From the IMG/VR virus record IMGVR_UViG_3300032285_000795, positions 1 through 30,372 of that record: a stretch of 30,372 bases of DNA; one strand, 5' to 3'. Made by a program: the position numbers and the translations under genes. Of this stretch, positions 1,711 through 29,638 are shown piece after piece; the stretch's first letter is position 1, and every line of letters begins with the position of its first letter. The notes beneath the pieces are model-generated. The model was not told where the DNA came from. It ran no database searches and worked only from the letters and a program-made list of their open reading frames with translations. This DNA is from a virus.

Positions 1711-2145
1711 TTATATTTTGGGTTTTTTGAGGATATGTGAGCCGTGAACTCGAACCTGTATGTGACCGTTATACCAGTCTGTAGATTCTAGAACTTTGTG
1801 TTTGAACTGTTCTCTTGCCTCGATGTAGCTGCATTCTGACTTGTTTTTGCAGTAAAATAGAATTTCTCTGGTGAAGTTTTCTTTGCCTAGTGACTCAACG
1901 TCTGCTGTTAGCGCATCGCTAGAACCATAATAGTCCTTCCAATCGCTTTCAATCTTGCCTCTAATCTTCTTTTTCTTCTTTTTGCCGTTCTTTAACGTTA
2001 CCGTCTTGTAGGTTGTTTTTGCAAATTTTGCTAGTTTCTTGCCTATGTACTTGCGCCCAGAGATGTTGTTGGTTATAAGATATACGAATCCAATATACTC
2101 TTCAGAGATTTCTTCAACGATTTTTTTCTTATAATACCAAGTCAT
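1711..2145 (-). CDS. GIY-YIG superfamily endonuclease-like protein
   Basis: This 144-aa protein has a compact GIY-YIG-type fold. The first motif is degenerate (GFVYL, residues 19-23, in place of GIY) and the second is intact (KYIGKK, 32-37). After a very basic loop with a run of six lysines (about 50-65), the pattern SDWKDYYGSS (67-76) and a later Glu in SYIEARE (E109) fit the region of this superfamily that holds the catalytic Tyr and metal-binding Glu. GIY-YIG enzymes cut DNA. In T4-like phages they include the Seg homing endonucleases, and close relatives next to gene 46 are common in marine T4-like phages. It is the last gene of the minus-strand recombination operon, starting 3 bases after the previous stop. 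It could be a homing nuclease, or a repair or host-DNA nuclease serving gp46/gp47. The superfamily call is fairly sure and the role is not. Confidence 0.7.
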   Translation of the reverse strand: MTWYYKKKIVEEISEEYIGFVYLITNNISGRKYIGKKLAKFAKTTYKTVTLKNGKKKKKKIRGKIESDWKDYYGSSDALTADVESLGKENFTREILFYCKNKSECSYIEAREQFKHKVLESTDWYNGHIQVRVHGSHILKKPKI

Positions 2146-11511: not shown

Positions 11512-11945
11512 TGGCTAAATTATACAATCAACAATCAGTGGCAACTAACAAAGCCACAACAGCACAGACAAGTTCTAGTTTTACCTATCGAGGGTTCAGC
11601 TCTAACGAAATTAAAAATAACTTTAAACTCTATGACATTAATCTAGTCAAGAGAGATTTAATGAATCACTTTTATATTCGTAAAGGTGAAAAATTAGAAA
11701 ACCCTAATTTTGGAACTATTATTTGGGATATGCTGTTTGAAAATTTCACTCCTGAAATTAAAAAGATGATCACTGACGATGTACAACAAATTATTAACTA
11801 CGATCCAAGAGTCAAAGTAAATTCGTTGACTATTGATACTACAGATATGGGAATTCGTATACAAGCAGATGTTGTTTATCTGCCGTTTAATATCAACGAA
11901 AAAATGACTTTTGATTTTGATAAAAAGAATAATGTTGTTAACTGA
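11511..11945 (+). CDS. 25: gp25-like baseplate wedge protein
   Basis: This 144-aa protein matches the GPW/gp25 family. The core is IRKGEKLENPNFGTIIWDML (56-75), with the family hallmarks R57, the E60 region, NPNFG and W72. The C-terminal half forms the remaining beta strands (VKVNSLTIDTTDMGIRIQAD). T4 gp25 is 132 aa and is the wedge component that links the sheath to the baseplate; it binds gp6 and gp53. The first 35 residues, rich in Ser, Thr and Gln, are an extension. Its ATG shares one base with the spike stop (TAATG), indicating coupled translation, and gp6 follows, the same 25-6 order as in T4. Confidence 0.93.
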   Translation: MAKLYNQQSVATNKATTAQTSSSFTYRGFSSNEIKNNFKLYDINLVKRDLMNHFYIRKGEKLENPNFGTIIWDMLFENFTPEIKKMITDDVQQIINYDPRVKVNSLTIDTTDMGIRIQADVVYLPFNINEKMTFDFDKKNNVVN

Positions 11946-11987: not shown

Positions 11988-14900
11988 ATGACAACTACTA
12001 CAAGACAAACAAATTTAATTATAAATCAGGATTGGACAAGAATCTATCAGACCTTTAAAAATGCTGACTTTAAAAGCTACGACTTTGAGAATCTCCGTCG
12101 AGTTATTATCACATATTTGCGTGAAAATTACCCAGAAGACTTCAATGACTATATTGAAAGCAGCGAATATCTTGCCCTGATTGATGCTGTTGCTTTCCTT
12201 GGACAGAGTCTTGCTTTCCGCATTGATCTAGCCAGTCGTGAAAATTTTATTGAATTAGCTTCTCGTAGAGAAAGCGTCCTTCGTATAGCTCGTATGTTGA
12301 GCTATAATGCCAAGAGAAATATCGCTAGTAAAGGTCTATTAAAGTTTGATACATTAAGCACAACTGAACCTCTATTGGATGCCAACGGAAAGAATCTAGC
12401 CCGTCAAACAATTATCTGGAACGATCCTACTAATCCTAACTGGAGAGAACAATTTGTTGCAGTGTTAAATGCAGCCATGTCCCCAAATACAGAATTTGGC
12501 CGAAGTCAAGGAAACGCTACCATACAAGGGATTCCTACAGAACAGTATCGTTTTAACACAGCCAATCGAGATGTTCCTATTTACTCTTTCCAAAAAAATG
12601 TAGCAGGCCGTAGTATGCCCTTTGAACTAGTAAGCACCGCTTTTAAAGGCAGTGAAGAAATTTATGAAGAACCGCCAGTTCCTGGAAATCAAATAGGTTT
12701 TATCTATAGAAATGACGGTAAAGGAACATCAAGCCCTAACACAGGGTTTTACCTCATGTTTAAGCAAGGCAGTTTAGAACTTGCTGATTTTTCTGTACCA
12801 GTTCCGACTACCAATGAAAAAGTTTCTATAGATGCCGATAATATCAACAACGACGATGTATGGTTATTTGCTTTAGCATCCAACGGAGCACAGCAAGGCG
12901 AGTGGACTAAAGTTTCTGCATTAGCTGGTAATAATATTGCTTATAATTCTGTAGAAAAAAATATTAGAAATATCTATGCAATATCTACAAAAAATAATGA
13001 TAGAATAGATTTAATTTTTGCTGATGGAGTCTACGGCAATCTGCCACAAGGACCATTTCGTGTTTACTATCGTACCAGTAACGGATTGTCTTACAGTGTA
13101 TTACCAAACGAACTACGAGGAATTAATATAAACATTCCTTATGTTAGTAAATCCGGAACCAAGCAGGTACTTAGTATCAGCATGAGTTTAAAATATACCG
13201 TTAGTAATAGTGTTCCTGCTGAAACGGTAGAAAGCATTAGAACAAAGGCACCCGCACAGTACTATACACAAAATAGAATGATTACAGCGGAAGATTACAA
13301 CCTTGCTCCGCTGGCTAGTAGTCAAGACATTTTAAAAGTTAAAGCAGTAAACAGAACAAGCAGCGGAGTATCAAGAAATTTTGATATTATTGATGCCAGC
13401 GGAAAGTATTCTAGTGTTAATGTATTTGCCGATGACGGATTAATTTACAAACAAGAAAGTGAAAAAAGTCTAGCTTTCAAACCTATTAATAGAATTGATT
13501 CAGTTAATTTTATTAGAAAAAACGTCGAGCCTTTGTTTACCAGTACAGGTGTTTATAATTTTTATTTTACAAAGTTTGATAAAATTTTATTCACTGATAC
13601 AAATACAATCTGGACACAGATTACCAAAGATGTTAATGAAAGCACAGGATATTTTTTAAATTCTATCGATTTAACTTTGCAAAAAGTTGGCGGTTATACA
13701 ACCAATACTTTAAAATATGTAACAGCAGGGTCATTGATAAAATTTGTTGCACCGCCCGGAAAAAGTTTTAAACGTGGCGAATTAGTAACAACCAATGTCT
13801 TAGATCCTGATCAAACTGATCGCCTATGGACTAAAATTATTCGAGTAGTAGGTGATGGTACTAATGCTGGCCGAGGCGTATTGAATACAGGTAAAGGCCC
13901 AATAGTTTTTAACGACATTATCCCAACTGGCGCTATTGCATCTAGAATTGTTCCAAAGTTTGTTAGCAATTTACCCGATGCATTAGAAACACAAATTGTT
14001 AATCTTTGTGCAGAAAACAAGAATTTTGGTTTACGATTTGACTTAACAACTTCCATGTGGAAGATTATTACAGCTCCTAATATTGATCTAATCAATGCAT
14101 TTGCTCTTGGTAAGGCTGGAGATACATCTAATAATAATGTTGACACAAGTTGGATATTAGCATTTACAAAAGAAGCAGACGAATACAAAATTCGTGTAAG
14201 AATTTTAAATTATATTTTTGGTAGCTTAGAACAAAATAGATTCTACTATGATTCCGGTCAAAAAATCTATGATAGCAAAACCGGAAAAGTAATCAAAGAT
14301 CAGATTAGAATTTTAGGAATAAATTCTAAACCAGGCGATACGGCACAGCTTAAAGAACAATTAATATTTGAAGTAGATGAATCTATCAAATATGAAGACG
14401 GTTTCCAAAGTTCAGAAGAAGTGCAAATTGCATTTGCAGACAGAGACGACGACGGAGTTATTGATAATCCAGACGCATTTGAACAAATAGTTGGAGCAGA
14501 TACTGATACACCTAAACCTTATATTTTCTTTGTTGAAAGTAAGGACACCTTTGGAAATATCATATATTCATATTTTGATAATAGTCAAGAACTTATTAAA
14601 ATAAGATCGCAGGAAAATACAGTTAGTATTACAGATTTTAACGATGGCGATTTAGTTTATTTTTACGACATTGCAGAAGATAGAGTTAAACGTGTTGACT
14701 ATGCATCAAACACCTTTATATTAGAACCTACATATAAAGCAAATATTGGTAGATCTAGATTAAATTTTCAATATGTGCATAATGCCAATGTAGATCGTAG
14801 AATTGATCCTAGTGTAAGTAACATTATTGATGTTTACCTATTAACAAAATCTTATGATAATAATTTTAGAAAATATCTGTCAGGAGGATTAACAACCAAA

Positions 14901-15392
14901 CCTGAAGCACCAAATAGTGACAGTCTACGGATAAGTTTTGGAAATACCTTAGGTGAAATCAAATCAATCAGTGACGAAGTGATCTATCATCCTGTAAACT
15001 ACAAGGTACTGTTTGGCCCAACAGCCGAATACGCTCTACAGGCACAGTTTAAAGTAGTTAAAAATACTACTAAAACCATCAATGACAACGATTTAAAAGT
15101 AAGAATTATTTCGTCTATTAATGATTTCTTTGATGCTGCTAATTGGGACTTTGGAGATAGATTTTACCTAGGTGAATTGATCACTTATATTACTAATGCA
15201 GTCAGTCCTGATTTAAGTAATTTAGTAATTGTTCCGAGACAGCCAACACAATCGTTTGGCAGTTTATTTGAAATTCAAAGTGCCACTGACGAAATTTTTG
15301 TCAGTGGGGCTACTGTAGATGACATTGTTATTGTAACTTCAATTTCAGCATCAGAAATACGTGTAAGCGCATCGGGTATTGTATCATCATAA
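11988..15392 (+). CDS. 6: gp6-like baseplate wedge protein, enlarged
   Basis: This 1134-aa protein has the gp6/baseplate-J-type layout. The N-terminal helical part (1-125) contains YIESSEYLALIDAVAFLGQ and FRIDLASRENFIELASRRES. A middle beta region follows, and the conserved segment APAQYYTQNRMITAEDYNLA (421-440) with QDILKVKAVNRTSSG (445-459) is the family's best signature. T4 gp6 is 660 aa; the region after about residue 500 is additional. In that extra part, DRDDDGVIDNPD (818-829) has the spacing of an EF-hand-like calcium-binding loop. In T4, gp6 dimers form the ring that ties the wedges to the hub and triggers the switch from hexagon to star shape. It follows gp25 as in T4. An AGGG precedes the ATG at a slightly long spacing. 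Confidence 0.9.
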   Translation: MTTTTRQTNLIINQDWTRIYQTFKNADFKSYDFENLRRVIITYLRENYPEDFNDYIESSEYLALIDAVAFLGQSLAFRIDLASRENFIELASRRESVLRIARMLSYNAKRNIASKGLLKFDTLSTTEPLLDANGKNLARQTIIWNDPTNPNWREQFVAVLNAAMSPNTEFGRSQGNATIQGIPTEQYRFNTANRDVPIYSFQKNVAGRSMPFELVSTAFKGSEEIYEEPPVPGNQIGFIYRNDGKGTSSPNTGFYLMFKQGSLELADFSVPVPTTNEKVSIDADNINNDDVWLFALASNGAQQGEWTKVSALAGNNIAYNSVEKNIRNIYAISTKNNDRIDLIFADGVYGNLPQGPFRVYYRTSNGLSYSVLPNELRGININIPYVSKSGTKQVLSISMSLKYTVSNSVPAETVESIRTKAPAQYYTQNRMITAEDYNLAPLASSQDILKVKAVNRTSSGVSRNFDIIDASGKYSSVNVFADDGLIYKQESEKSLAFKPINRIDSVNFIRKNVEPLFTSTGVYNFYFTKFDKILFTDTNTIWTQITKDVNESTGYFLNSIDLTLQKVGGYTTNTLKYVTAGSLIKFVAPPGKSFKRGELVTTNVLDPDQTDRLWTKIIRVVGDGTNAGRGVLNTGKGPIVFNDIIPTGAIASRIVPKFVSNLPDALETQIVNLCAENKNFGLRFDLTTSMWKIITAPNIDLINAFALGKAGDTSNNNVDTSWILAFTKEADEYKIRVRILNYIFGSLEQNRFYYDSGQKIYDSKTGKVIKDQIRILGINSKPGDTAQLKEQLIFEVDESIKYEDGFQSSEEVQIAFADRDDDGVIDNPDAFEQIVGADTDTPKPYIFFVESKDTFGNIIYSYFDNSQELIKIRSQENTVSITDFNDGDLVYFYDIAEDRVKRVDYASNTFILEPTYKANIGRSRLNFQYVHNANVDRRIDPSVSNIIDVYLLTKSYDNNFRKYLSGGLTTKPEAPNSDSLRISFGNTLGEIKSISDEVIYHPVNYKVLFGPTAEYALQAQFKVVKNTTKTINDNDLKVRIISSINDFFDAANWDFGDRFYLGELITYITNAVSPDLSNLVIVPRQPTQSFGSLFEIQSATDEIFVSGATVDDIVIVTSISASEIRVSASGIVSS

Positions 15393-15406: not shown

Positions 15407-18400
15407 ATGGCAGATCAAATTTTTCCTCAAAGCGGCGTTCCTATTAGAAGAACCGTTGACCTATTGCCTCAGGTATTTAAAACAGAAACCAATGACAAGT
15501 TCATGGCTGCTGTGGTTGATCCTTTAGTTCAACCTGGTGTATTACAAAAAACAACAGGCTATATAGGACGTCGTTGGGGTAAAACATACAAAGGTTCCGA
15601 TATCTATCTTGACGATGATACTACCTTAAGAAGTAGATATCAACTTGAGCCAGGGGTCGTAATTAACAATGAACAAGGCCAAGTTGAAAATTTTTACGAC
15701 TACATTGATTTTAAGAATCAACTGCAATTTTTTAACAATTATAACGAACGTGATGACAAGATAACAAGTCAAGAACATTATAGCTGGACTCCTCCTATTG
15801 AATGGGACAAGTTTGTAAACTTCCGTGAATACTACTGGGTTCCTAGCGGACCACCAAGTGTAAAAGTTTTAGGCCAAGGCAACGACATTGTTAGTACCTA
15901 TAAAGTAAGACAAGGAACTACATCTAGTTGGATTTTTTATCCTGATGGATTAACTAATAATCCTACAATTACTTTGTATAGAGGACAAACTTACAAATTT
16001 AATGTCAATAGTCCTAGAGAAGGTTTTTTTATAAGAACTGCTTATGATACCGGAAGTTTAAAGTATCGCCCAGAGCTTCCTTACATTCCAAATCAGTTAG
16101 CAGTCTATGACGGAAAACTATGGAGAGCAAAAAATTATGTATCAGCTAGTGTCAACGGAACAATCACAGAAGGACTAGATTGGGAAATAGTTGAAGAAAG
16201 CGTACAGACATCTAAATTTGATTACTCTGCCGGCATTACCAATAACGGTGCAATCAACGGAACAGTTACATTTGAAGTTCCTTACGATGCTCCTGATATA
16301 CTTTATTATCAAAGTGCAATTAATCCTGATAGGTTTGGAAGATTTTTAATTCAAGACATTGAAAATAACACCAGTATTAATATTGAGAAAGAAATTATAG
16401 GTAAAGAAACCTATACCAGTAGCAATGGTATTGAATTTGTTAACGGCCTAGTTGTTAGATTTGGTGGAACGGTTACTCCTACAAAATACTCTAAAGATAA
16501 CTGGCTAGTTGAAAAAGTTGGCCGCTCTATTGTTCTAATTAAATTCTCTTCGCTTGAAGTACCAATTATCACTAGTCAAATACCGGAAGTTATTTTTGAT
16601 AATACTGGTTTTGATACGGAACCCTTTGACGATGCCACATCGTATCCCGGTGAAAAAGATTACATTACTATTTGCCGAGCCAGTATTGATAGCAATCCTT
16701 GGTCTAGATATAACAGATGGTTTCACAGAGATACATTAGAAAAAGCACACCGACTTAACGGTACTGATTTTGCCGCCGGTGATAGTTTTAGAGCTAAACG
16801 CCCTATTATTGAATTCAGACCTAGTCTACAATTATTCAATCACGGCAGTGTTTCTAAAACACCAGTTGATTTTATTGATACATTTACTTCAGATGTATTT
16901 TCAACAATTGAAGGTAGTCAAGGTTATAGTGTTGACGGTGAATTTTTATACAACGGTGCAAGAATACTTGTCATCGCTGACACTGACCCGTTAGCAAATA
17001 ACAAAATATATCAGGTTAATTTTATTACCCACAACAATCGTCAACAGATAGCACTAAAATCTGTTGACGATACAGAACCTTTATTAGGTGAATGTGTGTT
17101 AGTACGATCAGGAAATGCCAATAAAGGACTGATGTATCATTTCAACGGAACAAATTGGGTAAGAAGTCAAGATAAAATCAAAACAAATCAAGTTCCTTTG
17201 TTTGATATATTTGATACCAACGGTATCAGTTTTAGCAACACTGATACCTACCCAGTTAGTACCTTTCTTGGAACCCCTATACTTGAATATAAAGTTGGAA
17301 ATAGTATTGCTGATAGTGAATTAGGTTTTAGTTTAGATTATTTAAACATTGATAATGTTGGAGATATACAATTTAAATTTAATCTTGATTCAGACGTCTT
17401 TACCTATTCATTAAATCAACAAACTATTACTGTTAATTTAAACACTGGATTTTATAGATTTAATCCGTTAGATGAATTTTATAACGGTTGGACCACAACA
17501 GATTCTGAATACCTACAACCAATATTAGATAGTAAAGTTATCACAGAGGTAACAAATTCTATAGAGTTATTAACACTAAATTGGGAAATGTTTGATGAAA
17601 AAAATTCTAAAATTTTATTTTTTCTAAACGGCATTCACTTCAAAGACAGCTATACCCGAGTTGATGGAACATTTACTTTTGCCAATAGTTTTTCAGTCAA
17701 CGATGTAATTTCGGTTAAAATTTTTACTGACCTTGATCCTGACCAAGGATACTATGCAATACCACATGGTCTTGAAAAGAATCCATTAAATGCAGAATTA
17801 AAAACATTTACATTAGGACAAGCAACAGATCATCTTAACCTAGCACTAGATGTAGACGATAGATTCTCTGGAATATTTCCAGGAACAAGCAATCTTAGAA
17901 ACATTGACGGATATCAAAATAAAGCCACAAGATTTTTAAAACACTCCGGGATAGCCTCACTAGCGATTGATGTGCTTTGTGACAAGAATACAAATCTTAT
18001 TAAAGCTCTAAGATACAATGCTAGATCATATTCAACATTTAAAAATGAGTTTATTACTAGAATAACAGAAACAATGCCCGAAGATAGCATTACAGATTTT
18101 GTTGATAATGTAATATCTAGTATGGGACTTGCTAAAGATACAGCAAATCCGTTTGCCGGCACAGACATGATTGGTAGCGGAGCTCACACAGATATAAACT
18201 ACACAGTCGAGGATGAAGGGATTAAAGTTTTTGCCCTAAGTCAAAAATTTAATCTAACCGATCTAAGTGACCGAGCAGTTTACGTTTACCTAAATGATCG
18301 ACAACTTGTACACGGAAGAGATTATACTTTTGATGACACATTTGGTTTTGTAAGATTAACAGTAACATTAAGAGAAGGCGATGTTATTAAAATAAAAGAA

Positions 18401-21400
18401 TATGTATCTACAGCTTTTAACTACATCCCCTATACTCCTACAAAATTAGGTTTGTATAAAAAGTATCTTCCTCACAAATTTTTAGATGACACATTTCAAA
18501 CTCCTAGAGATGTAATTCAAGGTCATGATGGTAGCATTATCTCTGCGTTTGACGATTACAGAGATGATGCAATTTTAGAATTAGAACTAAGAATTTATAA
18601 TAATATCAAACAACAATATGATGTCAATTTGTTTGACATAGATACAATTTTTGGCGGATATTACGGTAATGCTCTTTACACCAAAGAGGATCTAGATGCA
18701 ATTGTTTCTCCAGACTTCTTGCGCTGGGTATCAAATACAGATATTGATTATACCAATAACGATCTTTATTTTGATAGACAAAATAGTTTTACCTATACCT
18801 ACAGCAATATGACAGACCCCGACGGTCTAAAAAATCTTCCAGGATACTGGAGAGGAGTATTTCAATGGTTTTATGATACTACTAGACCTCACACCTGTCC
18901 TTGGGAAATGTTAGGATTTAGTGAAAAACCAACATGGTGGGAAAGTGAATATGGCCCTGCACCTTACACATCTGGAAATCTATTGCTATGGGAAGATATA
19001 AGTCAAGGTATTATTCGACAAGGCAGCCGAGCCGGGACATATGACCGATATGCTAGAAAATCTATTCTAAGTCATATTCCTGTTGACGGTGACGGTAAAC
19101 TGTTAAGTCCTTTAGATTCTGGGCTAGCTACAAATTACACACTAGTTAATAATAAAGGCGATTATAAATTAGGTGACCTTAGTCCTTCGGAATTTGCCTG
19201 GAGGAGTACATCTGAATGGCCGTACTCTGTTGTAATAGCATTATCTTTATTAAAGCCCTTTGAGTTTATTACTGACAACTTTGACAAATCCAGAATGACT
19301 ATTAATAAACTCGGACAAACTGTATTCAGTGAGACTGGAGTATTTGTTAAACTTTCAGATATGAAAGTTCCTACAGTTGGCAATTTCAATGTATCGGGAT
19401 TAATTTCGTTTATTACTAGTTACATTAGAAGTAAAAATTTAAATCCTGAGCAGTTAATAACTCGTATTAATAATTTAGATGTTAAGATATCATCTAGAAT
19501 TTCTGGATTCGTAGACCAGACTGAACAAAAATATCTGTTGGATAGTAAGAACCCAAGTTCTACTTCTAGCAGCATCTATGTTCCTAATGAAAATTACAAC
19601 ATTATTTTTAATGTTAGTTCACCAATTGCCAGTCTATCATATAGCGGTGTATTAATTGAAAAATTAGCAGAAGGATGGAAAGTTAAAGGCTATGACAATC
19701 AATTGTCATATTTTACCTATTTTAAAGCAGTGTCCAGCAGCACTGATCCGTTGACCAGTGTTGGCGGAGTCAGTGCAAAGTTTTATGACTGGGCTTCTGA
19801 CAAATTGTATTCTAATGGAGACATTGTTAGAGTACAAAATCTTTACTATCGAGCATTGAAATCTCATACCAGCGGAGTATCATTTGACAGATCTCTATGG
19901 AAAGCTCTACCTAAGTTGCCAGTTGTTGGCGGGATTGAAGCTTATTTTAGAAAAACATTCGACAAACTTAAAACTCAAAAAATGTACTACGGTACAGTTT
20001 TAAGAACTGTTCAGGACGTTGTTGATTTCCTATTAGGTTACGAAGCCCATTTAAAATTTATTGGATTTAATTTTGACCGTTATGATGCTGAAACACAAAC
20101 AGCATACAACTGGCAGACCAGCTGCAAAGAATTTTTATTCTGGACTAAACATAATTGGGCAGTTGGTAGTTTGCTAACACTAAGCCCTAGTGCCCAAGAA
20201 GTTGATGTGAATATACTAAGTGGTGTACCAGATAATTTATTTGATAGTTTCTATGATTATGAAATTTTTAAAAGCGATGGAACTGCCTTATTACCGATAT
20301 TTTTAAATGTTAAAAGAGACTTTCAAAAAGTAGCTGTTAGTACAGTTAATACTAATGAAGGGATTTATTTTTTAAAACTTAACTATGTGTTAAAAGAACA
20401 CGTAGTACTGTTTGATGATCGAACAGTTTTTAACGATGTTATCTATGATAAAACCACAGGTTATCGACAAGAACGTATCAAGAGTCGCGGATTCCGTACA
20501 GTTGACTGGGACGGAGATTATACCAGCCCAGGTTTCTTGTTTGACAATGTAAACATTCAACAGTGGAGTCCTTATACTGATTATCGACTAGGTGATATTG
20601 TATCTTATAAATCTTACAATTGGGTGAGCATAGAAAACCAACAGGGAACAGAAACTTTTAGCAATACTTACTGGTCAAAATTAGATACAAATCCTAAAAA
20701 AAGTTTAGTAGCAAATTTTGATTATAGAATTAATCAGTTTGAAGATTATTTTAACGTTGATGCAGACGGACTAGGATCTAGTCAACGTGATCTAAGCCGA
20801 CATGTTATTGGTTACCAAACTAGAGAATATCTGCAGGCCATGGCTGAAGATAATGTCAGCCAGTTTAGGATTTATCAAGGTTTTATTAGAGAAAAAGGTA
20901 CAGCTAATTCTATTACCAAAGTATTTGAAAAATTAAGTAGAACCGACACAGGGAGTATTGAACTTAACGAAGAATGGGCTTTCCGTGTTGGACAATTAGG
21001 CGGGACAGATCAGTTTGTTGAAACAGAATTTAGAATTTATAAAAACAATTTAAAATTAAACCCTCAACCAATTTTACTAGCACCTACAACCGAACCTACA
21101 GACGTACTAGATCTATATCTTCGTGTGCCAGTAAACGATTTTACAATTACTGCCAATCCATTTACTAAAGATATTAATCCTGTTAAAAAATATACACTAG
21201 CTCCTCGAGTTGCAGGCTATGTTAATATATTTGATGTCAATTATGTTCTTCCGACTAGAGATGATATACTGACTCTTGACAATACTGCGTTTGAAGAAAA
21301 CATGCATGTCTGGATTACATTTGATGAAAATTCTTGGACAGTTTTAAGATATAATGTATCTCCTTTATTAATTGTGACCAGCGTTGCTACAAACAAAACC

Positions 21401-24400
21401 AGAGTAGAGTTAGGGTTTAATAGAGATCACGGATTATCCGTAGGAGATATTTTTGGTATTAGAAATATAGAAAATATCACAGGCTTCCACAAAGTCACTG
21501 AAGTTCCTACTACTAGTTCTTTGGCCATACAGGTAGCAAAAGGACCATCAGATAATTCTTTTGATGCTAGTACTGTTGTAAATCTTGAATTGCTTCATGA
21601 AGCAAGATTTGAATCTTATCAATCTTTAGATCCTGATCAAATAGCGGCTCTTAATACTGGAGCTAAACTTTGGATTGATAATAACGGATTAGACAGATGG
21701 GAAGTGATCGAAAAAGAACAACAATTCATTGCAACCGATCTTTCAGAATACGGAATTTCTGCTCCTATCCGTAACGGTTCGGCCGTAGTTTATTCAGATG
21801 CTCTAGCACAGACAATTTCTTCAATGCCTGCTAGCAACATGGTTGTTGTATATGTAGAAAGAGAAGTTGGCCTTAAGCCTTTCCAAACATTGTTAAGATC
21901 TAACAATATTACATCGTCGGGCGTGTTCGGTGAAACCCTAGCAATTAGTCCGGACGGTAAGTGGCTAGCGGTAGGTTCTCCAAACGCTAGCAATGTTACT
22001 TCAGACTACAAAGGCATTTTCAATACCACATCCACATACACAAAAGGTGACATTGTATTGTATCAGGGTAGATTATGGAGAGCTACTTCTAATATTAATG
22101 GAGACGGCAGCACAATAAATCTAGTCACAACTGATTGGGAACCTGCGACAATTATCACAGCTAATGTCACTGGCACTGGAACCGGGTATACAAAACAAGG
22201 CGCAGTAACCATGTATGAATGGAGCGGACAAAATTGGATTGAACGATTTACCTTCATCAGTCCGCGACCTAACGGCAATGAAAACTTTGGAGAAAAAATT
22301 GTACTTGGCGTTGATGCTGGAAAATATTATATGGCAATATCTGCCCCAGGAGCCTTAGGTGGAACTGGAAAAGTATATCTTTATAAGTATGCTTCGGTAA
22401 CTCAAGACACTTCTCAGACTATTAGATTGTCTGTTACGGTCGGCCCTCCACAAAATTCTGACACAGGTTACAAGTATTATATTGACAATCAATATCATCC
22501 TAATTTAACATTTGAAGTTGGAAATACATATATCTTTGATCAAACTGATTTAAGTAATGTTTATTTTCCTAATCCTGTAGCAGGAACAGTTACTAACATA
22601 CACCCTATTAATATTAGTGCTGATGATATAAACGGTACATTAGCAGGCGGCACACTTTATACTACAGGAGTGACCTACTATCTAGATAATCGTCCAGTTA
22701 CTCAAACACAATACAGTTCTGGATTTGATATTGCAACAACTAGATATGTCAAGATGGTAATCACCGAATCAACAGCTAGTGTTTTTTATTATTTTGCTTC
22801 AACACTACCTTTGTCGATGGGTAATTCTATCATTAAGAAATATCCTACAATTGCTAAAGAATGGCAGTTTGAACAAAATCAAAATTACAAAGGAATTTAT
22901 GATAAAACAGGTTCAACATTTTATGAAGTTGGTGCCGTTGTTTGGTACGATAATGCATTGTGGCAATCATTAGAAGAACAATACGGAGACGGAAGTACAC
23001 TTAATCTAAATTCTAGCCAATGGCAAAAATTAGATCCTACAAGTACTCAAAGCTCGTTGCCTTCTAATCCTGCTACTGCCGATAATGATTCTACAGTTAT
23101 ATTATCTGAAGGTTTATTATCTTTTGGACAACTAGCAGAGTTAGTTAAGGAAGGCGACAGATTTGGTTCAACACTAGCCATGAATAGAGATGGATCAACA
23201 TTGGTTGTAGGGGCACCGTTAAGTGATGGACAGTATTTTGCCAACTATCAAGGAATCTGGAGCGGCTATCAAGAATATAACGAAGGATCAGTGGTCAAAT
23301 ATAATAACAATTATTACCGACTAACTGATCCCGGAACAGATTCTACTTACAAAAGTTATAACGAAATTCCATCGGCAGGAGCTCCGTGGACTTTATTATC
23401 AACACAGTCAATTGCAGCATCTGGTAAAATCTACATTTATCAAAAAAATCTCTACGGTCTCTATAGTCTAATGCAGACAATCAATGCCAACAGCTTGCCT
23501 GCTATCAGTGATATAGTTACAGATGAAAATATATTAACTGGGGATCTATTTGGATTTGCCATTGACATAGATAACGCAGGGACAACCCTAGTAGTTTCAA
23601 GTCCTAAAGCAGACATTACTCTTCAAGACCAAGGCGCAGTCTATGTATTTGTGTATGATACTGATTCTACAATTCCTAGTTTTAGATTAAAACAAAAATT
23701 ACAAAGTTTTGAAGATTTGTCAAATGAATATTTTGGATTTAGTTTATCAATTAGCGAAAGAACTGAACGTATCATTGTAGGTGCAAAAAACACTTCTTAT
23801 ATAGTTCCTACATTATTCCAGGGCACAAGTTTTAGTGGCGCTACATTCTCTGAAAATCTAGGATATCACGGTGATGTTTACGTATTTGAACTAAAAGATC
23901 AGATTTATGTACTTGCTGAAAAATTACAAACAAATTTTGTAGATAATGAAGCATTTGGTTATGCACTAGATGCCACAGCGTCTGTAATTGTAACAGGATC
24001 ACCAAATTACAAAATATCTGGAACAGCAGTTGGTCGGACCAGATTATTTAGAAAAGATCCTACTAAAAATAGTCTTACCACAATTAGTCAAGAAACTGAT
24101 CTAGTCAATATTGATTTAATAAAGAGTATTTCTTTATACGATGATGAAAATAATATCAGACTAGCTGATGTTGATATTATTGACACAAACAAGTTTAAGA
24201 TTCTTGGATCTGCCGAAGAAGAAATTAAATTTAAAACTCCTTACGATCCTGCAACCTATACTAATGGAACAGATCAAGTGGTTGTAGATGCAGACCAAGC
24301 ATGGTTTGAAAAAAATGTTGGCGCACTATGGTGGGATCTTAGCACAGTAAAATGGGCATTGCACGAACAAGGCGATGTTGCATACCGTTCTGGTATGTGG

Positions 24401-27400
24401 AATCAATTAGCAGCAGGAGCTTCTGTAGACATCTACGAATGGGTAGAAAGTTCTGTTACACCAACCGAGTGGAAAAAACTCGCAGATACAGTTGACGGTC
24501 TTGCTAATAATATTTCTGGTCAACCTGCTTACTCTAATACTGCTTATAGCATTAAAAAATTTACTAACGCAGCTACAGGTTTAGCCTACGGGACAAAGTA
24601 TTATTTCTGGGTAAAAAATAAAACAGTTATACCACAAGGTATTCCGGGAAGAAAAATTGCCGCGGCAAACGTAGCAGCTTCGATTATTAATCCAATTGGC
24701 GAAGGTATTCCTATTATTGCTATTATTGATAAAGATAAGTTTTTAGCTTATAATTTTAATTCTGTAATTAAAGGAAATTCAGCACTACTTAACATTGAAT
24801 ATTATAAATCAGAAAGAACGCCTAACAATATTCACACTGAATATCAATTATTAACTGAAGGACAATCGTCTAGTCTGCCTAGCGAAGCACTCGAGCAAAA
24901 ATGGATAGACAGTCTAGTAGGATTTAATAAATCAGGAAATCCAGTCCCAGATTCAACTCTTAGACCAAAACAAAAATACGGATTAGCCTTTAGACCGATA
25001 CAAACTATGTTTGTAGATCGTGCAACAGCTTTAAAAATTGTCATTGATAGAATTAATAATATTCTTGTAACCAAGCCATTTAGCGACTTAATTGATTTTG
25101 AATATTTAAACAAAGTAGATGCAATACCAAGCGCAACACTTAATCTCTATGACGTCACTGTAGATACTTATGAAGAATTAGCAGAGGTAGGAATTGTAAG
25201 GGTACGTCCTGCTATATTGTCGGCAAATGTTGTAGACGGTGAAATAGACACCATTGATGTTATTGATTCTGGTTTTGGTTACAGAACAGTTCCTCCAGTA
25301 GTAATCACAGGTGACGGTGTCGGCGCCAAAGCCGAAGCAGTTCTAGATAATCAAGGTCGAGTAGTTTCTGTTAGCTTGTTACAGAAGGGAAGAAAGTATA
25401 CAACAGCAGATGTGACTGTACGTAGTTTCTCTGCACTAGTACGTTCTGACTCTACATTTAAAAATTACTGGGCAATTTATTTCTGGGATACTGCAAGAGA
25501 AGGTTTCTTTAAGAGTAAAGTGCAGGCTTACAATACTCCTAACTATTGGAATTATGTAGATTGGTATGCTACCGGGTTTGATTCTACAACTAGGATTGTC
25601 AGAGAAATTTCTGATATTTTTCAAGAAATAAATTACACATTTGAGATAGGAGATGTAATTAGAGTTAAAGAATATGCCAACGGTGGTTGGGCATTAATTC
25701 AAAGAGTTGTAGACGGAACCGGAAGTATTTTATCTAACTATGAGATGATTGCTAGAAAAAACGGAACTATTGAAATAACTAAAGATTTGTATAACGTTCG
25801 AGTTTATGATTATGTTGCGACCTATGACGAAGAAGTTTACGATAATCAACCAACTAGCGAATTAAGAAATATTCTTAATGCAGTAAAGTATAATATCTTC
25901 ATCGACGATTTAAGTGCTGAATGGAATAAACTATTCTTTACCAGCATGAAATATATATTTTCCGAACAACTATATGTTGACTGGGCATTTAAGACCAGTT
26001 TCTTAAATGCTGTACACAATGTTGGCGATTTAGATCAACGTCCAAATTATAAAAATGACAACCTGCCTAGTTTCCAACAGTACCTAGAAGAAGTAAAACC
26101 TTTTAGAACCACAATTAGAGAATATACAAGTAGGTATACTGATATTGATCATCAAGGTGCCGCTATAACTGACTTTGATGTTCCTCCTAAGTATGATAAG
26201 CAAAATAAACAAGTGTTACCTGTGTTATCTAATTCTGAAGAATTAAACTACTATCCTTATAAATGGTGGAAAGATAATCACGGATATGAGATAGTAGATA
26301 TACAATTGTCAGATCGAGGAGGTGATTACAAAACTCCTCCTAAAGTTTATATTACAGGCGACGGCACAGGAGCAACAGCTCAGGCCTATATATCTAACGG
26401 TAAGTTATCCGGAATCAGAATGTTGACTACAGGTTCGGGTTATACCGTAGCTGCTGTTAGTCTAATTGGCGGAAACGGATCTTCAACAAAGATAGCAAAA
26501 GCTTCTCCAATATTAGGTAGCGGCCAAGTTAGAAGTTTTAATCTAGCATTGAAGTTTGATAGAATAACCAAAGATGGATCATATTCAACTTATCAATACG
26601 AGCAAACATTTACAGCTGACGGATTCACAGCAGTATTTGATTTAAATTATCCACCTACACGAGACAAAACTAAAATATCCGTAATCATTAACAGTGAAAT
26701 AATATTAGATAGCGATTATTCTTTGACATTTTATACTTTAGAATCTGATACTTATGATATACTAAGAGGAAAATTAAAATTAAGTTCACTGCCGTCGGCT
26801 GGTGATGTTATTACAATCACCTACGAAAAAGATGATGCTATTTTAGATTCTGTTGATAGAATTAACAAATATTATAGTCCAACCGCAGGCATGATAGGTA
26901 AAGAAGTAAATCAGCTAATGACTGGAATTGACTTTGGTGGCGTGCAAATTCAAGGTACAACATTTGATGTGTCTGGCGGTTGGGATGCTCTTCCTTGGTT
27001 TACTGATACTTGGGACAGTGTAGAATCTAATAATGATTTCCACTATATCTCAGACGGTAGCACAACTTATGTGACTCTTCCTGAAGCCCCTGCATTAGGT
27101 CAAAGAATTTCTATATATCTAAAGCGTGTGGGTGACGGCGTTCCTCGTAGCATTGATACATTAGATTCTGCAGGTGCCCCAAGAGTCGTATTTGATCCAG
27201 GCATCCCAATTCCAGAGACAATCCGTATAGACGATCCTAGTTTTGTTGTATATCCTGACGGTACTAACAATTGGGATTCTACAATTATTACAAATCCGTA
27301 TGCCCAGATGCCTACATTTATAGGCAATGGCATAAACAAAATTGTTGAGATAGGACAATATATCACAGTCAATCCCGGAGATACATTAATATTTAGACCA

Positions 27401-29638
27401 TTTGACAGTGACGGAACTGTAAATATCACTGACATTAATATTATTGATACAAATCTTTCAGGCGGAAGTCTTAGTGCTGTTAGCGGTGCCTATGTAACAG
27501 CAACTGGAACAATGGCTGAAGATATTAATATTGACGGCGGTAAATTTATTGACCCAGACCAAGTACCAGCGCCAGAAGAAAATATTCCAGGACAGGTATT
27601 AGAAAGTGTCAGTATTAAAGTTTTCCACTCTGTACAAACTGGCGCAACTCCCTTGCATTCAAAGATCGTTAAGAGTGACGGTACTACTAGAATTTTTGAT
27701 ATTGGTCAGCCTATAATAGAACCAGACTCTGTAATAGTCTATGTTGACAAAGTTAAGTGTGATTTTTATAATGTAGACAGTTCGATAACTTATAGTATTG
27801 ATTATGTTGCAAACCAAGTAGTTTTTGCAAATGCTCCTGAGATTGGAAGCACAATTGAAATACTATCTATAGGTATAGGCGGATCTGCAATATTAGATTA
27901 TCAAGAATTTGAAGCTGACGGCGATACTGTTAATTTCTTAACTAAAGCAAATTATAAAGATACTGCAAGCGTCTTAGTAACAGTAGACGGATTACAAGCT
28001 GATGTTGCGTTTGTTAACAGTTCTGAAGTAACAGATATTACTGATAAAACTTTAATTCAAATTGGAAATCGACCAGGCCGAGGCACAGTTATAAAAATTG
28101 TTTGTCTTGGATCAGCCACAGACGTTGACTCTAATCAACAAGCATTGGTTAGAATAAATCAACAGGTTATTACTTTTGACGGAAGCACGTTAAGTTACGA
28201 TCTTGATAAATTTGTAAACTTAACTAGAGCAAGTGCCACTGGTTCTGTTCTTGTAGAAATCAATGGATTTTATCTAACAGGGCCAGAAACTGAATTTGTA
28301 ATATATGACGGTACAAATAATTTAGTAAGTATTTTTAAAGATCCTGTACAGCCAACAAATACTGCAACACAAGAAAATATTGAAGTTTTTATTAATAACG
28401 AACAGAAAAAATATATTTTAGATTATGTCTATGACGGTAATAATAATACCGTAACAGTTAACCCTGAAATCTTAAAAGTTGGCGACGAAATTAAAATTGT
28501 TATTGATGTAAACAGTCAGTATACATTTGAAAATAATAACATTGTTTTTTCAGGAACAAGTTTTGTGCAAGATGACAGCACAACAACACTACAACAGGGT
28601 GATCAAGCTACAGTTACTTGGTTCAGCGAATATCCAAGCATGAATATAATCAGCGATGAATATGCAGGCGGAAAATCTAGATACCAATTATCTAGAGATG
28701 CAATTGGCGCAAGTTATATTTGGGTATACCTAAATGGACAAAGATTAACACAGGAAAAAGATTACGAGATTTCTATTCCTAGAAATCTCGTATATTTGCA
28801 AAAACCAACCATGCTAACAGATACAATTAAAATTGTACAATTTGGAAACTATGTAAGAAGACAAAGTCTAGGATTTGAAGTATTTAAAGACATGTTGAAC
28901 ATACATCATTTCAAACGTTTCAGCATTGATAAATCTGTAACATTAGTCAATGATTTATATTATTACAATCGAGAAATAATTGTTACTGATGCATCGATGT
29001 TATTTGATCCTATCCCTTCTAGAAATATTCCAGGTACAGTTTATATCAACGGTGAACGAATAGACTATTATGTTAAAAATGGAAATACTTTAACTCAGTT
29101 ACGTAGAGGAAGTTCTGGAACATCTATTGCTGAAATGTATGTAGCAGGTACACCTGTAGTTGATGTTAGTCGAGTTGAAAGTTTGCCCTATAACGAAGAA
29201 CAGGAAAGATTAGATTTTGTCAGCGACGGCAGCAGTTTATTAGTGGGCCCATTATCTTATGTTCCTGTAATCAGTGAAAAGTCATGGACTAGAACTACAA
29301 TTCCAACAGGTTTTGATAGCTGCGATCAAATTGAAGTTTTTGTTGCAGGAAGAAGACTTCGTAAAGATGCTGTTACAATTTATGATCAAACTTTAAACAT
29401 AACAAGCCCTCAGGCAGATATTGAAGTTGAACCAGAATTTACCGTTGACGGAACCAATCCTTATATTAGATTAACCAGTGTTGTTCCTGCAGGAACACGT
29501 ATCACAATCATAAGAAAATTAGGAAAAGTTTGGTATGACCGAGGAGAAAGTTCAGCGAGTTCGGGTGTAACTTTGCTTAAAAATCTAGGATCAATCCCTG
29601 AATTTTTAAAACAAAAGAGCACCGAGCTGCCTGAATAA
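15407..29638 (+). CDS. Giant multidomain baseplate/tail structural protein (4743 aa)
   Basis: A single open frame encodes 4743 aa. It starts 14 bases after gp6 with AAGG 8 bases before ATG. The N-terminus (VFKTETNDKFMAAVVDPLVQ, IGRRWGKTYKG) and the segment CPWEMLGFSEKPTWWESEYG (about 1164-1183) match what I recall of giant structural proteins of marine T4-like phages that follow gp6. T4 has genes 7 and 8 here, so this may replace or absorb a peripheral wedge protein. Visible modules are: cupredoxin-like domains (about 185-310 and 2335-2475), six aromatic CBM5/12-like modules (about 222-263, 1460-1502, 1717-1759, 2201-2247, 2494-2542, 2614-2664), six FG-GAP-type repeats (about 2171-2884), two Gly-Tyr-Pro-Pro repeats (about 3280-3339, 3632-3690) and beta-sandwich repeats with VYVNG-type strands (about 3730-4743). 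A host-surface contact role is inferred. No catalytic motif was seen. Confidence 0.88.
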   Translation: MADQIFPQSGVPIRRTVDLLPQVFKTETNDKFMAAVVDPLVQPGVLQKTTGYIGRRWGKTYKGSDIYLDDDTTLRSRYQLEPGVVINNEQGQVENFYDYIDFKNQLQFFNNYNERDDKITSQEHYSWTPPIEWDKFVNFREYYWVPSGPPSVKVLGQGNDIVSTYKVRQGTTSSWIFYPDGLTNNPTITLYRGQTYKFNVNSPREGFFIRTAYDTGSLKYRPELPYIPNQLAVYDGKLWRAKNYVSASVNGTITEGLDWEIVEESVQTSKFDYSAGITNNGAINGTVTFEVPYDAPDILYYQSAINPDRFGRFLIQDIENNTSINIEKEIIGKETYTSSNGIEFVNGLVVRFGGTVTPTKYSKDNWLVEKVGRSIVLIKFSSLEVPIITSQIPEVIFDNTGFDTEPFDDATSYPGEKDYITICRASIDSNPWSRYNRWFHRDTLEKAHRLNGTDFAAGDSFRAKRPIIEFRPSLQLFNHGSVSKTPVDFIDTFTSDVFSTIEGSQGYSVDGEFLYNGARILVIADTDPLANNKIYQVNFITHNNRQQIALKSVDDTEPLLGECVLVRSGNANKGLMYHFNGTNWVRSQDKIKTNQVPLFDIFDTNGISFSNTDTYPVSTFLGTPILEYKVGNSIADSELGFSLDYLNIDNVGDIQFKFNLDSDVFTYSLNQQTITVNLNTGFYRFNPLDEFYNGWTTTDSEYLQPILDSKVITEVTNSIELLTLNWEMFDEKNSKILFFLNGIHFKDSYTRVDGTFTFANSFSVNDVISVKIFTDLDPDQGYYAIPHGLEKNPLNAELKTFTLGQATDHLNLALDVDDRFSGIFPGTSNLRNIDGYQNKATRFLKHSGIASLAIDVLCDKNTNLIKALRYNARSYSTFKNEFITRITETMPEDSITDFVDNVISSMGLAKDTANPFAGTDMIGSGAHTDINYTVEDEGIKVFALSQKFNLTDLSDRAVYVYLNDRQLVHGRDYTFDDTFGFVRLTVTLREGDVIKIKEYVSTAFNYIPYTPTKLGLYKKYLPHKFLDDTFQTPRDVIQGHDGSIISAFDDYRDDAILELELRIYNNIKQQYDVNLFDIDTIFGGYYGNALYTKEDLDAIVSPDFLRWVSNTDIDYTNNDLYFDRQNSFTYTYSNMTDPDGLKNLPGYWRGVFQWFYDTTRPHTCPWEMLGFSEKPTWWESEYGPAPYTSGNLLLWEDISQGIIRQGSRAGTYDRYARKSILSHIPVDGDGKLLSPLDSGLATNYTLVNNKGDYKLGDLSPSEFAWRSTSEWPYSVVIALSLLKPFEFITDNFDKSRMTINKLGQTVFSETGVFVKLSDMKVPTVGNFNVSGLISFITSYIRSKNLNPEQLITRINNLDVKISSRISGFVDQTEQKYLLDSKNPSSTSSSIYVPNENYNIIFNVSSPIASLSYSGVLIEKLAEGWKVKGYDNQLSYFTYFKAVSSSTDPLTSVGGVSAKFYDWASDKLYSNGDIVRVQNLYYRALKSHTSGVSFDRSLWKALPKLPVVGGIEAYFRKTFDKLKTQKMYYGTVLRTVQDVVDFLLGYEAHLKFIGFNFDRYDAETQTAYNWQTSCKEFLFWTKHNWAVGSLLTLSPSAQEVDVNILSGVPDNLFDSFYDYEIFKSDGTALLPIFLNVKRDFQKVAVSTVNTNEGIYFLKLNYVLKEHVVLFDDRTVFNDVIYDKTTGYRQERIKSRGFRTVDWDGDYTSPGFLFDNVNIQQWSPYTDYRLGDIVSYKSYNWVSIENQQGTETFSNTYWSKLDTNPKKSLVANFDYRINQFEDYFNVDADGLGSSQRDLSRHVIGYQTREYLQAMAEDNVSQFRIYQGFIREKGTANSITKVFEKLSRTDTGSIELNEEWAFRVGQLGGTDQFVETEFRIYKNNLKLNPQPILLAPTTEPTDVLDLYLRVPVNDFTITANPFTKDINPVKKYTLAPRVAGYVNIFDVNYVLPTRDDILTLDNTAFEENMHVWITFDENSWTVLRYNVSPLLIVTSVATNKTRVELGFNRDHGLSVGDIFGIRNIENITGFHKVTEVPTTSSLAIQVAKGPSDNSFDASTVVNLELLHEARFESYQSLDPDQIAALNTGAKLWIDNNGLDRWEVIEKEQQFIATDLSEYGISAPIRNGSAVVYSDALAQTISSMPASNMVVVYVEREVGLKPFQTLLRSNNITSSGVFGETLAISPDGKWLAVGSPNASNVTSDYKGIFNTTSTYTKGDIVLYQGRLWRATSNINGDGSTINLVTTDWEPATIITANVTGTGTGYTKQGAVTMYEWSGQNWIERFTFISPRPNGNENFGEKIVLGVDAGKYYMAISAPGALGGTGKVYLYKYASVTQDTSQTIRLSVTVGPPQNSDTGYKYYIDNQYHPNLTFEVGNTYIFDQTDLSNVYFPNPVAGTVTNIHPINISADDINGTLAGGTLYTTGVTYYLDNRPVTQTQYSSGFDIATTRYVKMVITESTASVFYYFASTLPLSMGNSIIKKYPTIAKEWQFEQNQNYKGIYDKTGSTFYEVGAVVWYDNALWQSLEEQYGDGSTLNLNSSQWQKLDPTSTQSSLPSNPATADNDSTVILSEGLLSFGQLAELVKEGDRFGSTLAMNRDGSTLVVGAPLSDGQYFANYQGIWSGYQEYNEGSVVKYNNNYYRLTDPGTDSTYKSYNEIPSAGAPWTLLSTQSIAASGKIYIYQKNLYGLYSLMQTINANSLPAISDIVTDENILTGDLFGFAIDIDNAGTTLVVSSPKADITLQDQGAVYVFVYDTDSTIPSFRLKQKLQSFEDLSNEYFGFSLSISERTERIIVGAKNTSYIVPTLFQGTSFSGATFSENLGYHGDVYVFELKDQIYVLAEKLQTNFVDNEAFGYALDATASVIVTGSPNYKISGTAVGRTRLFRKDPTKNSLTTISQETDLVNIDLIKSISLYDDENNIRLADVDIIDTNKFKILGSAEEEIKFKTPYDPATYTNGTDQVVVDADQAWFEKNVGALWWDLSTVKWALHEQGDVAYRSGMWNQLAAGASVDIYEWVESSVTPTEWKKLADTVDGLANNISGQPAYSNTAYSIKKFTNAATGLAYGTKYYFWVKNKTVIPQGIPGRKIAAANVAASIINPIGEGIPIIAIIDKDKFLAYNFNSVIKGNSALLNIEYYKSERTPNNIHTEYQLLTEGQSSSLPSEALEQKWIDSLVGFNKSGNPVPDSTLRPKQKYGLAFRPIQTMFVDRATALKIVIDRINNILVTKPFSDLIDFEYLNKVDAIPSATLNLYDVTVDTYEELAEVGIVRVRPAILSANVVDGEIDTIDVIDSGFGYRTVPPVVITGDGVGAKAEAVLDNQGRVVSVSLLQKGRKYTTADVTVRSFSALVRSDSTFKNYWAIYFWDTAREGFFKSKVQAYNTPNYWNYVDWYATGFDSTTRIVREISDIFQEINYTFEIGDVIRVKEYANGGWALIQRVVDGTGSILSNYEMIARKNGTIEITKDLYNVRVYDYVATYDEEVYDNQPTSELRNILNAVKYNIFIDDLSAEWNKLFFTSMKYIFSEQLYVDWAFKTSFLNAVHNVGDLDQRPNYKNDNLPSFQQYLEEVKPFRTTIREYTSRYTDIDHQGAAITDFDVPPKYDKQNKQVLPVLSNSEELNYYPYKWWKDNHGYEIVDIQLSDRGGDYKTPPKVYITGDGTGATAQAYISNGKLSGIRMLTTGSGYTVAAVSLIGGNGSSTKIAKASPILGSGQVRSFNLALKFDRITKDGSYSTYQYEQTFTADGFTAVFDLNYPPTRDKTKISVIINSEIILDSDYSLTFYTLESDTYDILRGKLKLSSLPSAGDVITITYEKDDAILDSVDRINKYYSPTAGMIGKEVNQLMTGIDFGGVQIQGTTFDVSGGWDALPWFTDTWDSVESNNDFHYISDGSTTYVTLPEAPALGQRISIYLKRVGDGVPRSIDTLDSAGAPRVVFDPGIPIPETIRIDDPSFVVYPDGTNNWDSTIITNPYAQMPTFIGNGINKIVEIGQYITVNPGDTLIFRPFDSDGTVNITDINIIDTNLSGGSLSAVSGAYVTATGTMAEDINIDGGKFIDPDQVPAPEENIPGQVLESVSIKVFHSVQTGATPLHSKIVKSDGTTRIFDIGQPIIEPDSVIVYVDKVKCDFYNVDSSITYSIDYVANQVVFANAPEIGSTIEILSIGIGGSAILDYQEFEADGDTVNFLTKANYKDTASVLVTVDGLQADVAFVNSSEVTDITDKTLIQIGNRPGRGTVIKIVCLGSATDVDSNQQALVRINQQVITFDGSTLSYDLDKFVNLTRASATGSVLVEINGFYLTGPETEFVIYDGTNNLVSIFKDPVQPTNTATQENIEVFINNEQKKYILDYVYDGNNNTVTVNPEILKVGDEIKIVIDVNSQYTFENNNIVFSGTSFVQDDSTTTLQQGDQATVTWFSEYPSMNIISDEYAGGKSRYQLSRDAIGASYIWVYLNGQRLTQEKDYEISIPRNLVYLQKPTMLTDTIKIVQFGNYVRRQSLGFEVFKDMLNIHHFKRFSIDKSVTLVNDLYYYNREIIVTDASMLFDPIPSRNIPGTVYINGERIDYYVKNGNTLTQLRRGSSGTSIAEMYVAGTPVVDVSRVESLPYNEEQERLDFVSDGSSLLVGPLSYVPVISEKSWTRTTIPTGFDSCDQIEVFVAGRRLRKDAVTIYDQTLNITSPQADIEVEPEFTVDGTNPYIRLTSVVPAGTRITIIRKLGKVWYDRGESSASSGVTLLKNLGSIPEFLKQKSTELPE
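16070..16196 (+). other. Carbohydrate-binding-like module 1 of the giant protein, inserted in a cupredoxin-like domain
   Basis: It encodes about residues 222-263, with NQLAVYDGKLWRAKNYV then a final DWEIV. The order of an aromatic, V-x-Y-x-G, (L/Y)-(W/Y)-R-A and a closing W resembles CBM5/12 chitin-binding modules. Sequence on both sides (LYRGQTYKFNV before; TVTFEVPYDAPDILYYQS after) reads as one split cupredoxin-like domain. Confidence 0.4.
19784..19912 (+). other. Carbohydrate-binding-like module 2 of the giant protein
   Basis: It encodes about residues 1460-1502: YDWASDKLYSNGDIVRVQNL, then YYRALKSHTSG and LWKAL. This is the clearest CBM5/12-type pattern: an aromatic start, Y-x-x-G-D-I-V, YYRA, and a final W. 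Binding to chitin, peptidoglycan or surface polysaccharide is inferred only. Confidence 0.5.
20555..20683 (+). other. Carbohydrate-binding-like module 3 of the giant protein
   Basis: It encodes about residues 1717-1759: QQWSPYTDYRLGDIVSYKSY, then NWVSIENQQGTET and YWSKL. It has the same module order as the other copies, including Y-x-x-G-D-I-V-x-Y and the closing W. Confidence 0.5.
21917..24058 (+). repeat. FG-GAP-like beta-propeller region of the giant protein, with inserted modules
   Basis: It encodes about residues 2171-2884. Six copies share a pattern: F-G-x-x-(L/I)-x-(I/M/L), then D-x-x-x-x-L-V-V-G-(S/A)-P, sometimes followed by G-x-V-Y-(V/L)-(F/Y). They are GVFGETLAISPDGKWLAVGS, NFGEKIVLG with AISAPGALGGTGKVYLY, RFGSTLAMNRDGSTLVVGAP, LFGFAIDIDNAGTTLVVSSP, YFGFSLSISERTERIIVGA, and AFGYALDATASVIVTGSP. 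This is the integrin-alpha type FG-GAP repeat, which builds seven-bladed propellers used for adhesion. Three carbohydrate-binding-like modules (22007-22147, 22886-23032, 23246-23398) and a cupredoxin-like stretch sit between the blades. A seventh blade was not identified. Confidence 0.6.
25244..25423 (+). repeat. Gly-Tyr-Pro-Pro repeat, copy 1, in the giant protein
   Basis: It encodes about residues 3280-3339. The key parts are DSGFGYRTVPPVVITGDGVG, then AKAEAVLDNQGRV and KGRKYTTADVTV. This is a short beta repeat, common in phage tail proteins, built on G-x-G-Y, P-P-x-V-x-I-x-G-x-G-x-G-A-x-A. It pairs with the copy at 26300-26476. Confidence 0.55.
26300..26476 (+). repeat. Gly-Tyr-Pro-Pro repeat, copy 2, in the giant protein
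   Basis: It encodes about residues 3632-3690. The key parts are DRGGDYKTPPKVYITGDGTG, then ATAQAYISNGKLSG and TGSGYTVAAVSLIGG. Copy 1 lies about 1.05 kb upstream, and the core ITGDGxGAxA is the same in both. Confidence 0.55.

Follow-up and report, generated by a model that had tools for sequence, protein, structure and literature searches.

A Seven-Bladed FG-GAP_2-Type Propeller Predicted to Carry CBM5/12-Fold Modules in a Wedge-Region Giant Protein of an Uncultured Phage

Results

A giant structural protein of an uncultured phage is strongly predicted to contain an FG-GAP_2-type propeller that carries three modules of the CBM5/12 fold, and the reading that we prefer, with a probability of about 0.55, is that the face bearing these modules would bind host-surface glycans and so serve as an auxiliary platform for host adhesion. 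The DNA analysed (the window) is an IMG/VR virus record of 30,372 bases, a fragment of the phage genome.

The giant protein and its genes of neighbourhood

The protein is the product of a single open reading frame (ORF) of 4743 codons, preceded on the plus strand by three genes in the order of a T4-like baseplate run and followed by an ORF of 221 amino acids (aa).

9904..11511, plus strand: gp5-type hub, lysozyme family (phrog_13211/430)
11511..11945, plus strand: gp25-type wedge protein (phrog_261/43)
11988..15392, plus strand: gp6-type baseplate wedge protein, adjoining the giant ORF (phrog_10646/219)
15407..29638, plus strand: giant structural protein, 4743 aa (phrog_10938 'virion structural protein', phrog_438 'baseplate wedge subunit')

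The same gene order was found in phage PAC2 (PA5oct group), where the 3857-aa protein at this place is annotated as 'chitin-binding type-3 domain-containing'. In T4, gp7 follows gp6, and the gene of the giant protein likewise lies directly downstream of the gp6-type gene. Gene order and PHROG matches thus support a wedge-region baseplate protein at the place of T4 gp7, and to this extent the initial annotation, which had named a phage baseplate protein, stands; homology to T4 gp7 itself was not detectable. The hhalign probability was 0.1–0.2% for both the propeller and the region following it, so that a sequence kinship of either to T4 gp7 was rejected, and those Pfam gp7 domain models which recognise T4 gp7 itself had no match in the giant protein; 'gp7-like' is therefore a positional label. 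A PDB sequence search with the whole giant protein returned no match and an NCBIfam search nothing useful; the backbone was matched in 60 of 50,697 phage records searched. By eye, minus-strand ORFs of the window resemble the recombination proteins gp46/gp47, and one ORF of 144 aa (1711–2145, minus strand) is like a GIY-YIG endonuclease.

The propeller

An AlphaFold2 model of the propeller region was built from an alignment of 38 rows, and its strand list contained seven four-stranded blades, one cryptic and six of FG-GAP type. The elements, all on the plus strand, are as follows.

21785..24091, plus strand: seven-bladed FG-GAP_2-type propeller with insertions, residues 2127–2895 (AlphaFold2, Pfam, Foldseek)
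21785..21895, plus strand: cryptic blade 0 without FG-GAP motif, residues 2127–2163 (DSSP of the AlphaFold2 model)
21926..22258, plus strand: blade 1, residues 2174–2284, module 1 in the strand 2–3 loop (AlphaFold2, motif scan)
22286..22870, plus strand: blade 2, residues 2294–2488, extra domain in the strand 3–4 loop (AlphaFold2, motif scan)
22391..22849, plus strand: extra domain of blade 2, about 153 aa, residues 2329–2481, fold of low confidence (AlphaFold2, alignment)
23162..23482, plus strand: blade 3, residues 2586–2692, module 3 in the strand 2–3 loop (AlphaFold2, motif scan)
23549..23704, plus strand: blade 4, residues 2715–2766 (AlphaFold2, motif scan)
23732..23923, plus strand: blade 5, residues 2776–2839 (AlphaFold2, motif scan)
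23954..24091, plus strand: blade 6, residues 2850–2895 (AlphaFold2)

The model had a pLDDT of 74.4 and a pTM of 0.72, with values mostly above 80 in the propeller and below 50 in much of the blade-2 insert. The six FG-GAP repeats that had been read from the DNA are present, five of them fitting the FG...GxP-type pattern and the sixth being divergent. The initial annotation had given the span as 21917–24058; a propeller does lie there, its extent being 21785–24091 with seven blades, and the start was moved because the cryptic blade precedes the earlier one. Pfam model PF14312 (FG-GAP_2) scored 59.6 bits in the window, with a curated cut-off of 23, and matched all 38 aligned sequences. Foldseek comparison with the PDB returned many propellers, integrin alpha chains included (integrin alphaV 8vs6, TMt 0.58); the low whole-model TM-scores are probably due to the inserts. 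The viral models (BFVD) that matched were FG-GAP proteins from phages and from giant viruses, such as the Atu_ph07 'hemagglutinin' (TMt 0.66).

In the strand order of the model, modules 1 and 3 occupy 2–3 loops and module 2 joins strand 4 of blade 2 to strand 1 of blade 3. Since strands alternate in an up-and-down blade, the three modules are predicted to leave the propeller on one common face and the extra domain on the opposite one. In integrins, the face of the 2–3 and 4–1 loops receives ligands and also bears the alpha-I domain, which is itself placed in a 2–3 loop.

To the eye, the extra domain of blade 2 (22391–22849) is similar to the N-terminal beta domain at residues 165–335, a cupredoxin-like pattern being a first impression; that it is a copy of this domain found no support by BLAST. 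A viral Foldseek match for the region is annotated YHYH, the link being putative.

When the window propeller was compared with the 50,697 phage records, no match was obtained at 1e-5, and the propeller of a relative gave a single weak match, in Sinorhizobium phage Phosso, to a protein other than the wedge-position one. This is a hypothetical protein of 3692 aa (record positions 57900–68978, L090) with at least 10 FG-GAP_2 repeats; the scanned part of it scored 225 bits.

The CBM5/12-like modules

Three modules stand in the propeller, where the initial annotation had located them, and three more that it had overlooked are present elsewhere in the same protein.

22007..22144, plus strand: CBM5/12-like module 1, residues 2201–2246 (module HMMs, AlphaFold2, Foldseek)
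22886..23038, plus strand: CBM5/12-like module 2, residues 2494–2544 (module HMMs, AlphaFold2)
23246..23398, plus strand: CBM5/12-like module 3, residues 2614–2664 (module HMMs, AlphaFold2)
16064..16186, plus strand: further CBM5/12-like module, residues 220–260, within the N-terminal beta-rich domain (module HMMs, conserved W)
19790..19921, plus strand: further CBM5/12-like module, residues 1462 to about 1505, with a PAC2 counterpart at about residues 1594–1640 (Pfam, module HMMs)
20561..20686, plus strand: further CBM5/12-like module, residues 1719–1760 (Pfam, module HMMs)

The propeller modules are 46–51 aa long and have the motifs previously described for them: they begin with YKGI, YKGI and YQGI (modules 1, 2 and 3), all three close with W, and DGSTINL in module 1 corresponds to DGSTLNL in module 2. 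PF02839 (CBM_5_12) scored 34.1 bits in the propeller region, its curated cut-off being 26.2, and matched in 38/38 aligned sequences; module 1 scored alone gave 26.2 bits, exactly at the cut-off, and 14 of 19 individual modules of relatives matched at E up to 1. HMMs made from each propeller module found the other two, and also the three further modules; scores between modules reached 45.8 bits, whereas the best score obtained when the complete protein was shuffled 200 times was 4.1 bits. The repeats and modules are not due to chance, because both Pfam scores exceed their cut-offs, all 38 relatives match, and 45.8 bits stand against 4.1. The HMM searches that had been proposed thus found both families.

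Module 1 modelled separately (54 residues) reached a pLDDT of 84 and a pTM of 0.68, and its Foldseek matches were CBM5/12 folds of phage and contractile-injection-system modules and of chitinases (TMq 0.6–0.74), in agreement with the fold first proposed. They included Cis13 from the baseplate of the Anabaena injection system (TMq 0.73), the tail fibres of phages A-1(L) and 7-7-1, the Milano tailspike, and CBM5/12 domains found in chitinases and chitin deacetylases. The E-values were above 0.001 (0.003 at best), as is expected for only 54 residues; the matches were consistent with one another and agreed with the sequence profile search. Profile matches to PDB sequences spanned just the first 25–30 residues, i.e., the first half of the module. 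The ligand-binding tryptophan of ChiA1, W687, is an exposed residue in the second half of the CBM5/12 domain. At the equivalent place, judged by sequence position only, nine residues before the closing W, no aromatic residue was found in the modules of the window.

The region of the Milano tailspike that matches module 1 falls in its tail-binding N-terminal module (PMC10811340), and the trimeric Cis13 attaches to the baseplate by its N-terminal domain (PMC8894136). Because these relatives are baseplate-docking domains, docking is a serious rival to sugar binding.

Relatives and nested insertions

In IMG/VR, 158 places that encode relatives were located by a profile-guided scan, and 80 of them were retained; the alignment comprised 38 distinct sequences including the window, the other 37 being 43–85% identical to it. 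All three modules and their closing W were kept in every one of the 38. The blade-2 domain of about 153 aa was absent from 23 of the 37, and further domains were found inside the modules: one of 51 aa within module 2 (at window residue 2500) in L056, L058, L061, L062, L064 and L067, one of 74 aa within module 2 of L082, and one of 51 aa within module 3 of L063. L033 has an insert of 156 aa. The PAC2 homologue is without a propeller: its backbone can be aligned with that of the window as far as residue 1892 of the latter, and again from 2889 (318 aa there, 996 aa in the window), and by eye the KLWIDNN...WEV motif, which precedes the propeller in the window, and the post-propeller region are adjacent in it. 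This comparison indicates that the propeller is a domain insertion, or that it was lost in PAC2. Domains are thus nested up to three deep, with the propeller in the backbone, a module in the propeller and a domain in the module.

These phages make heavy use of the CBM5/12 fold. Four partial genomes of relatives (110–199 kb) contained 16–20 CBM5/12 matches each, mostly in two adjacent large ORFs with 7–9 modules at the N-termini; a fifth (G004) contained three only. The two ORFs of one of them (G001; L092:1879–7416 and L092:7472–12001) encode fibre-like proteins of 1846 and 2786 aa with N-terminal arrays of 7–9 CBM5/12 modules, and another (G003, L093) likewise has two adjacent fibre-like proteins with such arrays. 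Several array modules have the HTS motif of chitinase chitin-binding domains; the propeller modules are without it. A search for psbA, a marker of cyanophage origin, gave no match in 12 partial relatives.

Divergence of the modules within the clade of the window

Over 4261 residues, the complete giant protein of the window and that of its nearest relative, L009, are 91% identical. Divergence between the two is greatest in three 40-residue islands, which are the three propeller modules, and random placement was as divergent in 7 of 20,000 draws, a figure which, like the others of this kind, is descriptive, because this first pair had been noticed prior to testing and the pairs share branches. 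Third-codon identity was 32–57% at the modules and mostly 52–96% elsewhere, a drop which suggests replacement by a divergent copy and not only selection on amino acids. The other alignable modules, in the backbone at residues 1462 and 1719, showed ordinary divergence. Across the clade (the window and L009–L025), 12 of the 18 pairs tested had module 1 and/or module 3 among the bottom 4% of segments; five other clades had no such excess for these two modules, and module 2 alone was divergent in one (L037–L041), in a single pair. Localised module divergence is thus confined to the clade of the window. A general hypervariability of the modules was rejected, as 34 close pairs averaged 84% identity in the scaffold and 81, 81 and 77% in modules 1–3. 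No donor of the divergent L009 module 3 was found in IMG/VR, the sole full-length match being 46% identical. L010 and L011 differ from the window in further divergent islands around residues 4080–4240, towards the C-terminal end of the giant protein.

One could suppose that the wedge itself recognises receptors through the propeller face, on which, at fixed loop sites, CBM5/12-like cassettes are swapped by recombination in this clade, retuning glycan specificity with fibres and scaffold untouched. We regard this as a speculative proposal, and a rather improbable one.

Discussion

Phage adsorption is usually credited to fibres and spikes. In the reading that we prefer, an FG-GAP_2 propeller would have been inserted into the backbone of the wedge-region giant protein, with the three CBM5/12-fold modules growing from the 2–3 and 4–1 loops and standing together on one face. 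This face may point outward at the rim of the baseplate, where it would make low-affinity, multivalent contacts with host glycans during adsorption, supplementing the dedicated tail fibres; the CBMs in a wedge protein of a Bacillus myophage offer an analogy. Against this reading stand the absence of an equivalent of the ChiA1 ligand tryptophan, the restriction of PDB profile matches to the first half of the module, the confinement of module divergence to one clade, and the role of the best solved structural relatives, which dock fibres to baseplates. Moreover, a distal CBM of phage A-1(L) gave no host binding.

A possible but clearly less probable explanation is that the modules are putative sockets or clamps for fibres, tailspikes or neighbouring wedge proteins, engaged in protein contacts within the virion and not with the host. 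The best matches of module 1 (Cis13, the tail-binding module of the Milano tailspike and other phage fibres) speak for such a docking platform, as do the two adjacent fibre-like proteins with module arrays in larger relatives and the retention of the modules in all relatives, which an assembly role would predict; co-variation with exchanged fibres could also account for the local divergence. However, in Cis13- and Milano-type structures the module sits on the fibre side and not on the wedge side, the module loops differ in length and sequence beyond what a conserved interface would lead one to expect, and the virion partner is putative only.

It is unlikely that the propeller and its modules were accreted neutrally as mobile beta-domains, acting as spacers or decorations without a specific ligand. 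The inserts nested at several levels in L056 and its like, L082, L063 and L033 would fit such a history, but three modules with their core aromatics in 38/38 sequences, down to about 43% identity, are unexpected for dispensable filler. An integrin-type, Ca2+-dependent adhesion propeller binding ligand by its own blade loops is highly improbable in spite of the FG-GAP_2 repeats, seven blades and integrin fold matches, as the canonical Ca2+ loop D-x-[DN]-x-[DN]-G-x-x-[DE], which in integrins belongs to the 1–2 loops, is absent from the window and occurs twice in all 38 relatives together.

With a propeller that bears a row of CBM-type modules on one side, a conserved wedge-region protein would provide a second, built-in surface for adhesion or docking besides fibres and spikes. 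The propeller with its modules is common to many environmental phages, whereas the searched records of cultured phages did not reveal it. This domain offers a compact soluble construct for asking whether the body of the baseplate recognises hosts, and the giant protein is an example of three-level domain nesting.

Comparison with known systems

Both CBM-decorated baseplate proteins and phage propellers are of kinds already known. Their combination here is unusual: an FG-GAP propeller with CBM5/12 modules on a single face, inserted in a wedge-position protein, was not found in the literature searched, nor did that search find any paper on FG-GAP in phage baseplates. By fold only, the window propeller can be likened to A0A6J5S3H5 of an uncultured Caudovirales phage and to the Atu_ph07 'hemagglutinin', which share a predicted FG-GAP-type propeller. 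Beta-propellers also occur in adsorption proteins and at the tail periphery, with five blades in phi11 gp45, six in PRD1 P2 and seven in phiKZ gp131C (PMC6115969), but these are separate receptor-binding or peripheral proteins and not module-bearing FG-GAP insertions. The integrin alpha propeller shares with the propeller of the window its seven blades, the FG-GAP repeats and the insertions on the 2–3/4–1 loop face, and differs in that the latter has no Ca2+ loops, a weak sequence similarity and a phage context. In the closest solved structures of a module of 46–51 aa, unlike here, the module is carried by a fibre-like trimer, which it docks to the baseplate.

The classic case of CBM insertion into baseplate proteins is that of the evolved Dits of siphophages, a conserved baseplate protein into which CBMs have likewise been inserted, either within loops or at domain boundaries (PMC8540738); the scaffold (Dit) and the CBM families are different, and the phages are long-tailed and non-contractile. 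The closest precedent that has been tested is that of phage Vp4, where CBM folds have been added to the wedge protein Gp119 of a contractile phage and are missing in a related phage; Gp119 binds B. cereus cells and the homologue without CBMs does not (PMC11406892). Gp119 resembles the giant protein in this addition, whereas its CBMs are of the CBM16/xylanase type, its wedge is of the BW3 type without a propeller as carrier, and its host is Gram-positive.
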